Positions 45,116 to 47,809 of a stretch of DNA of 64,000 nucleotides are shown here, one piece after another (within the stretch, counting starts at the first letter, position 1; each line of letters starts with the position of its first letter). The translations under genes were made by a program, and so were the position numbers. The stretch covers positions 62,001 through 126,000 of the forward strand of contig NZ_JAEQNC010000004.1 in NCBI RefSeq assembly GCF_016722925.1, read 5' to 3'. This DNA is from Phytoamicus setariae. GTDB lineage: Bacteria; Pseudomonadota; Alphaproteobacteria; Rhizobiales; Rhizobiaceae. The notes under the pieces were generated by a model. That model had not been told where the DNA came from and made no database searches. It saw only the letters and a program-made list of their open reading frames with translations.

Positions 45116-46027
45116 ATGGAACGACCGGTACTTCCACAGGGCCTTCCGGCCGATATCGAAGACAAGAAGGAAGCGGCCCGGCAGTGGTTCGAGAGCCTGC
45201 GAGACGGGCTTTGTGCAGCTTTTGAGGCGCTGGAAGCCGAGCTTACCGGGCCGCTATCGGATTACCCCGCAGGAAAGTTCCATCGCAAGGACTGGCTGCG
45301 CGAAGATGGTCGTGGCGGCGGCGGCACGATGTCCATGCTTGAGGGACGCGTCTTCGAGAAGGCAGCCATCCACACATCCACCGTCTATGGCGAATTTTCG
45401 CCGGAATTCCGCCAGCAGATGCCCGGCGCGTCGGAAGACCCGCGCTTCTGGGCTTCGGGAATTTCGCTGATTGCGCATCCGGTCAATCCGCACGTCCCAG
45501 CGGTGCATATGAACACCCGTATGGTGGTCACAAGCTCGCACTGGTTCGGCGGCGGCGCCGACCTGACACCGGTCCTGGGCCGGCGTCGCACCCAGGAAGA
45601 TCCGGACAGCCAGCTCTTCCACAGGGCGCTGGAAATTGCCTGCTCGCGCCATGCGGTTGCCGACTACCCGAAATACAAAGACTGGTGCGACGAGTACTTC
45701 TTCCTCAAGCACCGCAACGAGGCGCGTGGCATCGGCGGCATCTTCTTCGACTGGCAGAACTCCGATAACGAACAGGGCGGATGGGATGCCGATTTTGCCT
45801 TTACCCGTGACGTCGGCCGCGCTTTCGGCCTCGTCTATCCCAAGATCGTGCGCAGCAATTTCAACACGCCCTGGACAGAGGACGACCGGGACGAACAACT
45901 CATCCGTCGCGGCCGTTATGTCGAGTTCAACCTGCTCTACGACCGCGGCACCATGTTCGGTCTCAAGACCGGCGGCAACGTTGAAGCGATCCTTTCCTCA
46001 CTGCCTCCGGTCGTTCGCTGGCCTTGA
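45116..46027 (+). CDS. hemF: Oxygen-dependent coproporphyrinogen III oxidase
   Basis: A 303-residue enzyme of haem synthesis that decarboxylates coproporphyrinogen III with O2. [54 protein letters not shown] and [20 protein letters not shown] are the family blocks. ATG 45116 fits the usual N-terminus; the frame is open to 45032 but without a convincing site. It is divergent from the GGDEF/EAL gene. Confidence 0.95.
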
Positions 46028-46130
46028 CGACGGACATGTGAATTCAGGGGAAAGATTCGCGATCGTCATATTTCTGAGACCTAATATATGCTAGGTTACC
46101 TCCGTCCCTGATGAGCTGGAGGAGTTAGTC

Positions 46131-46337
46131 ATGGCAACGACCGAGACCACTCGCGTCACCACCGAGGAGGCCGAAGGATTGCGCAACGATCAGGCGGTCA
46201 ATCTCGCCGACCGCGATTCCTATTTTGAGCATCTTGCTTCCATGAAGGCCGACAACCGCAAACTGTCTGCAGCGCTTCGCCTGCAGACGTCGGCCTGCTT
46301 CGAATCCTGGGCCTTGCCGGACTATATGCGCCATTGA
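46131..46337 (+). CDS. Small protein of unknown function
   Basis: A 68-residue acidic/polar protein with an excellent ribosome site (CTGGAGGAG, seven bases before ATG 46131). It begins MATTETTRVTTEEAEGLRND and ends CFESWALPDYMRH; mostly helical, no signal or membrane segment. The site and codon use argue that it is translated. Its 3' end faces the sRNA gene encoded on the other strand 35 bases beyond. No family recognised. Confidence 0.6.
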   Translation: MATTETTRVTTEEAEGLRNDQAVNLADRDSYFEHLASMKADNRKLSAALRLQTSACFESWALPDYMRH

Positions 46338-46371
46338 CGCGTGTGATAAGCGCGGGAAATCTGGAACGGGG

Positions 46372-46490
46372 ACAAATAAAAAGCCCGGCGCGGGAGGAGG
46401 TGCACCGGGCTTTAATCATGACTGACAACTGGGAGGAGGAGTGTTGTCAGTCGCTATGAAGAGGTTCGGGAGGAGGTGAACCGCTTCATT
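46372..46490 (-). ncRNA. Three-hairpin sRNA with CCUCCUCCC (anti-Shine-Dalgarno) loops, Cuckoo/CcsR type
   Basis: Read on the minus strand, three hairpins each show CCUCCUCCC in the loop. The stems are 46456-46467 with 46478-46489 (11 pairs, one mismatch), 46420-46429 with 46443-46452 (10 perfect pairs), and 46380-46388 with 46405-46413 (9 perfect pairs). The last is a Rho-independent terminator with TTTTTATTTG after it on the minus strand; the plus strand has only TTTAATC, which fixes the orientation. The motif is complementary to AGGAGG ribosome sites. It matches the CCUCCUCCC-motif RNAs of alphaproteobacteria (CcsR of Rhodobacter, Cuckoo RNAs of Rhizobiales). It lies 75 nt after the cca stop on the same strand, so it may have its own promoter or be processed from the cca transcript. 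Confidence 0.85.
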
Positions 46491-46496
46491 AATCAG

Positions 46497-46526
46497 ACTG
46501 TAATATTGCACCGCAGAAATGACAAG
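46497..46526 (-). promoter_or_regulatory. Putative promoter of the CCUCCUCCC sRNA
   Basis: On the minus strand TTGTCA (46525-46520) and TACAGT (46502-46497) are 17 bp apart and place a start near 46490. The same stretch also reads CTTG-N17-TATTAC, compatible with an RpoH (heat-shock) type promoter, as known for the Rhodobacter CcsR RNAs. The two readings cannot be separated by eye. Confidence 0.45.
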
Positions 46527-46564
46527 CGAAAAATTGCGGCATTGCAATATTTTTCATTCGCATA

Positions 46565-47809
46565 CTATTGAATAGCCAGTCCGACGAGCTCGTCCCTCGT
46601 CAGTGAGAAGTTCGAGGCGATCCAGTCTTTTTCCAGCCGCTCGAGCATGGCCCCCATTTCCGGTCCCGGCTTGAAGCCAACGGCAAGCAGGTCGGCCCCC
46701 TTGACCGGGAGATTCGGGCGTTGCCATTGTTCGGTGGCCTGCAAAAGCTTCTGCAGATAGCCCATGCGCTTCAGCTGATCGAGATCATCCTCACCTTTCG
46801 AGAGTGCATTCGCGATCGCCAGCTTAAGCCTGGCCACCGACCCGGCTGCGCCATGCTGGTAAAGCAGCTTCTCCCAGTCCGTCTTGGAAATCGTCTCGAC
46901 GAAGTTCGGAAACTCCGAAAATGCCTCCAGGAACTCCCGCTCGGCACCGGACATTCTCAGGCGATCGGCCATCGCTTCGAGCCTGTCGCTTACCGGCGGG
47001 ACCATTGCGGCAAGTCTGAGGAGCGGATTTACGGGCCAGCCGAATTGATCTTCTGCGCGCACTAGCGCCGGAACTGCGTCGATGCCCCACTTTTCGGTTT
47101 CCGGCAGGACTTCCGTCAGTACGCCCGACGTCCGCATCCACAGCAGCGCCCGGAACGGGTCTGGCGCCGAAAGCAGCTTGCGCATTTCGGCCCATATCCG
47201 CTCGGCGGAAAGCGCGCCAATGCTTTTCTTGGCAACCGCACAGGCTTTCAGTCCCTCTGCATCCGGCCGTCCCTTGCCGTAGAAAGCAAAGAACCGGAAG
47301 AACCGCAGGATACGCAGATGATCCTCGGCGATCCGCTCGGCGGCCGAACCGATAAAGCGGATCGTTGCCGATGCGATATCCGGCAAGCCACCCACATAAT
47401 CGTAGACCTCGCCGTCTTTGTCGGCATAGAGCGCGTTGATCGTCAGGTCTCGGCGCTCGGCATCCGCCTTCCAGTCATCGGTGAACTCCACTTCGGCATG
47501 CCGGCCATCGGTATCGACATCCTTGCGCAGCGTTGTGACCTCGAACGGCTTGCCATCGACAACAAGCGTCACCGTGCCGTGCTTGATGCCGGTCGGCACG
47601 CATTTGATGCCTGCTGCCTCGGCGAGCGCCTGCACTGCCTCGGGTCGATGGGTGGTGGCGATATCCATGTCGCTGAGCGGGATGCCCATCAAGCTGTTGC
47701 GCACCGCGCCACCGACAATGCGCGCCTCACCGTCATCGCGGTTGAGCAGCGCCAGCACACGTTGAAGCCCCTCAGCCTTGAACCAGTTTTCGCTGGCGAT
47801 GTTGGTCAT
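46565..47809 (-). CDS. cca: CCA tRNA nucleotidyltransferase / poly(A) polymerase family
   Basis: A 414-residue class II nucleotidyltransferase that builds or repairs the tRNA CCA end. RIVGGAVRNSLMG and DMDIATTH hold the catalytic Asp pair, KHGTVTLVVDGKPFEVTTLR the third carboxylate region, and RRDLTINALY and RIAEDHLRILRFFRF the nucleotide-selection and neck motifs. It is the last gene of DUF1285-NUDIX-cca; its ATG overlaps the NUDIX stop (ATGA). The sRNA described above follows its 3' end. Confidence 0.93.
   Translation of the reverse strand: MTNIASENWFKAEGLQRVLALLNRDDGEARIVGGAVRNSLMGIPLSDMDIATTHRPEAVQALAEAAGIKCVPTGIKHGTVTLVVDGKPFEVTTLRKDVDTDGRHAEVEFTDDWKADAERRDLTINALYADKDGEVYDYVGGLPDIASATIRFIGSAAERIAEDHLRILRFFRFFAFYGKGRPDAEGLKACAVAKKSIGALSAERIWAEMRKLLSAPDPFRALLWMRTSGVLTEVLPETEKWGIDAVPALVRAEDQFGWPVNPLLRLAAMVPPVSDRLEAMADRLRMSGAEREFLEAFSEFPNFVETISKTDWEKLLYQHGAAGSVARLKLAIANALSKGEDDLDQLKRMGYLQKLLQATEQWQRPNLPVKGADLLAVGFKPGPEMGAMLERLEKDWIASNFSLTRDELVGLAIQ

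Follow-up and report, generated by a model that had tools for sequence, protein, structure and literature searches.

Genetic organization of the hemF-cca locus

The window, i.e., the whole 64-kb stretch of DNA that was analysed, includes a small RNA gene located between a short ORF and cca. In order of coordinates the locus consists of hemF (nucleotides 45116 to 46027, plus strand), coding for coproporphyrinogen III oxidase (Pfam PF01218); a small conserved ORF of 68 amino acids (46131 to 46337, plus strand) with no Pfam match; the RNA gene (46376 to 46494, minus strand), which as delimited by its Rfam match (RF02344, ar14) and its fold would specify a whole RNA of about 119 nt; and cca (46565 to 47809, minus strand), the tRNA nucleotidyltransferase gene (PF01743, PF12627 and PF13735), whose nearest named relative, from Rhizobium sp. 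G21, shows 66% identity. The small ORF is the convergent neighbor of the RNA gene, while cca lies upstream of it on the same strand with its stop codon 70 nt from the RNA 5′ end. Two minus-strand ORFs, 46198-46428 and 46125-46334, had no Pfam match. Similar ORFs to the one of 68 amino acids are found between hemF and cca in seven genomes of the same genus, and on this account it is probably a real small protein. This ORF and its seven relatives all end at the C terminus in CF-x2-WA-[LM]-PD.

The minimum free energy (MFE) and centroid structures of the minus strand agree on three consecutive hairpins. Hairpin 1 (46456 to 46489) exposes the motif CCUCCUCCC at 46476-46468; hairpin 2 (46420 to 46452), a perfect 10-bp inverted repeat whose loop carries CUCCUCCUCCC, has the motif at 46439-46431; and hairpin 3 (46380 to 46413), also recorded as inverted repeat I2, has it at 46400-46392. 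The MFE of nucleotides 46494-46376 was −49.6 kcal/mol as compared to −22.4±3.1 kcal/mol for 200 dinucleotide shuffles, none of which was as low (z = −8.7). The sequence CCTCCTCCC occurs three times in all on the two strands of the 64 kb, always in these three loops, and simulations at Markov orders 1, 2 and 5, with 60 windows per order, gave no window with three occurrences within 120 nt. The fold and the motif search thus confirm the initial annotation, which had proposed three minus-strand stem-loops with CCUCCUCCC unpaired in each. It had also taken the last one as an intrinsic terminator, and this too holds, as hairpin 3 has a GC-rich stem followed by UUUUUAUUU; it is absent from the list produced by the terminator scan because the scan allows loops of up to 8 nt and that of hairpin 3 has 10. 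The location given there (46372-46490) was correct, with ends shifted by 4 nt with respect to the Rfam match at 46376-46494.

Assignment to the ar14 family

The RNA matches the Rfam family ar14 (RF02344) over the complete model (positions 1-123 of 123) with a score of 106.9 bits (cut-off 58.8, E = 9.3e-19), and this is the sole Rfam match above cut-off in the whole 64-kb window. CcsR1 (RF02791), which aligned to the first two hairpins, reached 45.4 bits with a cut-off of 65.3, and CcsR was rejected as the family for this reason. Matches to anti-hemB, Scr3202 and the Betaproteobacteria toxic sRNA were weak, far under their cut-offs, and were treated as chance. Therefore, while the view of this element as a CCUCCUCCC-type anti-Shine-Dalgarno sRNA is upheld by sequence and structure, the CcsR-type membership suggested at first has to be replaced by ar14, the family founded by NfeR1, to which the full-length match and the sub-cut-off CcsR1 score assign it. 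The score above the covariance cut-off, the three predicted hairpins with the motif in their loops, the varying but paired stems and the multiple copies in the Rhizobiaceae all agree with ar14. The family and its loops have been described, with six copies in Sinorhizobium meliloti (PMC7143759), and RFMSmelA075 was reported to form three hairpins that have variable stems and CCUCCUCCC in their loops, and to be present in several copies with a fragmented synteny (PMC3927594). From its sequence, the element looks like an intact sRNA gene of this known rhizobial family; only its place beside cca and the details of its promoter appear to be new here.

Copies of ar14 in the genome, the genus and the order

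Matches to ar14 above cut-off were found in 37 of 61 genomes, namely 36 of the 37 of the same family (the host's own included) and one of the 24 from other families of the order; eight more of these 24 had weaker matches (E≤0.001). The genome that includes the window has four copies, the best of which scores 107.7 bits as compared to 106.9 for the copy studied here. For comparison within the host genus (Rhizobiaceae), eight other genomes were used, giving nine with the own genome (G000-G008). A set of 54 copies was assembled from 49 of the 51 matches in these nine genomes (one each in G005 and G008 was left out) and five from S. meliloti 4H41, and it was divided by eye into groups A to D on the basis of sequence and flanking ORFs, some rows for G003 and G004 being partial. 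Group A is present once per genome in one conserved place, the own copy (contig C8) being about 450 nt before a DUF1127 gene. Group B is present once per genome in a second conserved place (own copy on C5), and its Rfam match includes two motif hairpins, with a further motif just upstream in eight of nine. Group C, characterized by a terminator like GCCCGGYGCA-loop-GCRCCGGGC, is found in several unrelated places and includes the window copy and another of the same genome (C37). Group D is the remainder, 18 copies with some weak hits among them.

Among the copies listed, no cluster of ORFs within 2.5 kb was common to the window copy and another copy, and over the RNA and 60 nt of promoter its identity to the nearest among the 53 others is no more than 70-73%. 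A few observations on the other copies can be added. A further CTCCTCCC is located less than 60 nt upstream of eight of the nine group B matches (L124, G000:C5:93142-93241, and orthologues) and less than 40 nt upstream of 10 of the 18 in group D, so that the RNAs of these two groups may be longer than the Rfam match. In four genomes of the genus a group C copy lies less than about 200 nt after a gene that by eye is htpG-like (L147, L155, L160, L172). At L123, L137 and L148 the same neighboring gene is followed by copies of different groups, which in the own genome is group C and in two relatives group D, as if this place had been re-used, and at L137 the end of a DUF1127 gene (Pfam PF06568) is found just before the ar14 copy.

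Conservation of the loops and covariation of the stems

The initial annotation had argued that one conserved loop carried by different stems indicates selection on the loop. Fourteen aligned group C copies were analysed with the structure taken from the window row and with 500 shuffles as reference; the first hairpin of G008c is visibly misaligned. Both sides had changed in 23 of the 33 pairs, and there were 61 double-changed cells as compared to 28.8±4.6 after shuffling (none of 500 as high). Paired cells amounted to 83%, and to 29-49% in slid versions of the structure, a comparison that favors the unshifted structure because this was derived from the window row. Four of five covariation measures exceeded all 500 shuffles, while the fifth, further pair types, was unexceptional (reached by 50 of 500). 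In hairpin 1 all 10 outer-stem pairs had a two-sided change in one or more of the 14 copies, with 82% of the cells paired. Hairpin 2 gave the weakest result, with two-sided changes in 6 of 10 pairs and 70.7% of cells paired, due in part to alignment slips, and in hairpin 3 the cells were paired in 97% of cases. The loop positions of this alignment are for the most part invariant or close to it. Throughout the 54 copies, 138 of 147 motif blocks fall in hairpin loops of the MFE structure, and the weak matches G005_e, G005_f and G006_f have none there. The stems therefore covary around loops that are nearly fixed, which supports the proposed selection on the loops. The loops are kept as well as the terminator, so that the refuting outcome named in the initial annotation, conservation of the terminator alone, is not what is seen.

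A probable insertion next to cca

In all seven other genomes of the genus in which cca was found (eight were searched, and none was found in G006) the stop codons of the small ORF and of cca are separated by 15-48 nt. In the window this gap is 227 nt and contains the RNA and its promoter, and since these are absent from the seven relatives the unit was probably inserted. The search was extended to 80 named Rhizobiaceae cca loci, five of which (L034-L038) apparently belong to the same genomes as five of these seven. In each of them exact CTCCTCCC occurred at most once on either strand, with flanks of up to 3 kb, a search in which diverged copies may escape because only exact CTCCTCCC was counted. 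There is likewise no CTCCTCCC within 3 kb of cca in S. meliloti 4H41, and hemF is present in 65 of 88 cca loci (own locus counted, and five genomes apparently twice). As it is found neither in the seven genomes nor, at the level of exact CTCCTCCC, in the 80 named loci, a conserved link between cca and ar14 was rejected and the place beside cca is unique to this genome among those examined. The gain of a unit is, from these sequences, simpler than many losses, and we infer that the sRNA with its promoter was inserted beside cca rather than lost elsewhere. The proposal of a lineage-specific arrangement is in this way sharpened to a probable insertion. The contrast drawn there with copies next to DUF1127 genes is also fair: the genome has four DUF1127 matches (two on C8, and one each on C12 and C1), the C8 copy of ar14 precedes one of them, and there is none on the window's contig (C32).

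These comparisons bear on a simpler reading, in which the three hairpins simply belong to cca, as its 3′ untranslated region with the terminator, and are generated by read-through or processing, with hairpin 3 ending the cca transcript and no independent role as an sRNA. The position and orientation of cca would permit it, and no terminator is listed between cca and the RNA, although the same scan, with its loop limit of 8, missed hairpin 3 as well. We consider it highly improbable: the sequence is absent at cca in the seven relatives, exact CTCCTCCC occurs at most once on either strand in the 80 named loci, of which five apparently overlap with the seven, and the promoter layout described below is common to copies with other neighbors. 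Hairpin 3 may serve both as cca terminator and as part of an sRNA.

Predicted promoter and putative operator

A sigma-70-type promoter, TTGTCA-17-TACAGT, was predicted by consensus scan at 46497 to 46525 on the minus strand, 2 nt before the start of the Rfam match. Its hexamers agree with the consensus in 9 of 12 positions, and one such promoter was found as compared to 0.2±0.5 in shuffled sequences; transcription would be expected to start near 46494-46489. Within the genus a like layout precedes the 12 other copies of group C, and it is also found at one copy of S. meliloti. An operator-like inverted repeat (46502 to 46551, minus strand) with 19-nt arms at 46551-46533 and 46520-46502, 79% complementary, flanks the −35 hexamer.

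The group C promoters have in common an element, similar to TGCGAYGCAGCAT, that lies between −35 and −10. Each of the 13 copies that the genus has in group C, and also one from S. meliloti, carries a TGCGATGCAGCATTAT-like sequence whose first base is located at −25 to −18, with scores of 11 to 16 out of 16 that have no equal in 43-75 control stretches per copy; the window copy scores 12 of 16, and none of 74 control stretches was as good. In a test of a 12-base element the result was clear for 10 of the 13 group C copies, the weak cases being G003_e (12 of 182 controls as good), G007_d (15 of 182) and G008_c (4 of 101), while among the ar14 loci of the rest of the family few gave a clear result. 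With a 16-base element none of the 13 was weak. As the consensus was read from the same copies, there is some circularity in the two tests. The element is also found at the group B copy G007_e and at a second S. meliloti copy (SmC1a). In the 21 best loci of other genera of the family the site at L011 was equalled by no control, those at L005, L024, L026 and L031 were equalled by 2 to 10 of 102-103 controls, and the remaining ones were ordinary; the notion that the element is a general feature of ar14 was rejected on this basis. In group C the element may be the binding site of a regulator.

The boxes published for LsrB and its orthologue VtlR (PMC10746234, PMC7486931) were scored as TGCA-N6-GCAT and GCAT-N3-TG-N3-T, respectively. 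The S. meliloti copy SmC9_2, which is taken to be NfeR1, has an exact match to each of the two, and the promoter of the window copy has neither in exact form. In exact forward orientation the VtlR box is found in two of the 13 copies in group C, in one of which it lies just over the −35, in seven of the 18 in group D, none of nine in group A, none of nine in group B, and one of five from S. meliloti, with a background of 28 in 2137 stretches; the LsrB form is found in 2 of the 54 copies (G007_b and SmC9_2; background 20 in 1811). As a consequence of the absence of both boxes, the known activator of NfeR1 may not act on the window copy, and another regulator is a fair guess.

A wider proposal can be made tentatively, and we hold it to be somewhat less than an even chance. 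In group C the sRNA, its terminator and its promoter, with an operator between −35 and −10, could form one self-contained module that spreads to unrelated sites in the Rhizobiaceae, keeping the same three-loop output with an input other than LsrB. Some other regulator would read TGCTGCATCGCA-type sites, present as an inverted pair around the −35 of the window copy, and the NtrBC loop (see below) would have been lost in the genus.

The copy could also be a silent duplicate, i.e., a young member of the family that is hardly expressed or not at all and is maybe decaying. Since Northern blots of S. meliloti reliably revealed only one of its six copies (PMC7143759), the window copy may be weak or silent, and both its position beside cca, unique in the data examined, and the lack of a VtlR or LsrB box would fit. 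Against this, the three motifs, the stems, the terminator and the −35/−10 layout are all intact, and the Rfam score is close to that of the best copy in the genome. In addition, the stems still pair although the nearest copies are only 70-73% identical, which would hardly be the outcome of decay. On balance we regard a silent duplicate as unlikely.

Proposed mode of action and targets

The most probable explanation, to which we give a probability of roughly 0.85, is that the element is a paralogous, trans-acting ar14 sRNA with its own promoter, an inserted unit that blocks Shine-Dalgarno sites by means of its three loops. A unit of about 180-210 bp would have been inserted between the small ORF and cca. 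Transcription would proceed from TTGTCA-17-TACAGT toward the small ORF and end at the RNA's own terminator hairpin, the stems would hold the three identical CCUCCUCCC loops open, and any of these could pair with the purine-rich Shine-Dalgarno sequence (GGAGGAGG type) of mRNAs made elsewhere, blocking translation in trans, with decay of the mRNA to follow. The family assignment, the predicted structure, the loops and covarying stems, the absence of the unit in relatives and the promoter layout of the sibling copies were computed here; by analogy, the window copy would be expressed and act like NfeR1.

In S. meliloti NfeR1 has a role in salt survival and nodulation (PMC7143759). It is activated by LsrB and repressed by NtrC and in turn silences translation of ntrB, a loop that has been called likely conserved in α-rhizobia; it pairs with mRNAs through three loops that are redundant in target silencing, and a loop mutant loses its effect (PMC10746234). 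In S. meliloti 4H41 GGGAGGAG, a natural partner of the loops, is found before the ntrB start and is likely the NfeR1 pairing site. It is absent before ntrB in all nine genomes of the genus, as read by eye in a set of ntrB start regions (L181-L189 and L191); seven ntrB leaders have GCGAGG, that of G001 keeps GGAGG and that of G007 has neither; in G008 a GGAGG is located just after the start codon. The own ntrB, with AGCGAGGCCGC, has a predicted duplex of −10.1 kcal/mol, which is not special as it ranks 21 in comparison with 59 ORFs of the window. The S. meliloti ntrB pathway can therefore not be assumed here. The leader of the 68-amino acid ORF, CTGGAGGAG, could pair with the loops according to the duplex model, at −15.4 kcal/mol, and only three of the 59 window ORFs were better, in a scan that took the first ATG as start, which may be wrong, and in which at least one top-scoring ORF was apparently mis-started.

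The main partner could instead be a protein or the ribosome, the loops acting as a decoy that mimics the 3′ end of the 16S rRNA or binding a DUF1127-type protein. The sequence CACCUCCU is the core of the bacterial anti-Shine-Dalgarno; a search of this assembly for a 16S gene, whose tail would serve for comparison, gave none. CcsR-like RNAs often accompany short DUF1127 genes (PMC10253847) and the DUF1127 protein CcaF1 assists in the processing of CcsR RNAs (PMC10253847, PMC12501420). The available text on a tetracycline-induced DUF1127 leader (PMC12218461) has no mention of these RNAs. Some ar14 copies do adjoin DUF1127 genes, but the window's contig has no DUF1127 match and NfeR1 acts by pairing with mRNAs, an effect lost upon mutation of its loop. 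A protein or ribosomal partner is for these reasons quite unlikely, and pairing with mRNAs is the preferred mode of action.

The element is an additional, well-formed copy of a regulatory RNA that is already known, and little is learned from it about mechanism. It is of use for evolutionary questions, as the cca site without the unit in close relatives suggests that such an sRNA can arrive whole, promoter included. The missing ntrB site is a warning that the NtrBC-NfeR1 loop of S. meliloti should not be presumed in this genus.

Comparison with known systems

The closest known system is NfeR1 (SmelC397) of S. meliloti, the founder of ar14, with which the window copy has in common its length, three hairpins with CCUCCUCCC in all loops, hypervariable stems, the role of hairpin 3 as terminator and the presence of multiple copies per genome. 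The two differ, apparently, in their neighbors, which here are hemF, the small ORF and cca, and they differ in the absence of a VtlR or LsrB box and the presence of an inverted repeat around the −35 in the window copy, and in the S. meliloti ntrB pairing site, which is absent in the window's genus. RFMSmelA075 (PMC3927594) is alike in that it forms three hairpins with CCUCCUCCC in their loops, has several copies per genome and shows a microsynteny that is fragmented, unlike RFMSmelA099 of the same report, which has four hairpins; in the main text of that paper (2011) cca is not mentioned. CcsR1 (RF02791) and the Cuckoo RNAs have the CCUCCUCCC motif, according to the Rfam description, but the CcsR1 model spans only two hairpins, and in contrast to the CcsR/Cuckoo CIN1 locus the window copy does not adjoin a DUF1127 gene. 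AbcR1 and AbcR2 (ar15) are also trans-acting rhizobial sRNAs with anti-Shine-Dalgarno motifs, and their targets have been predicted to overlap those of NfeR1 (PMC10746234, PMC7143759); they form a separate family, only ar14 being above cut-off in the window.
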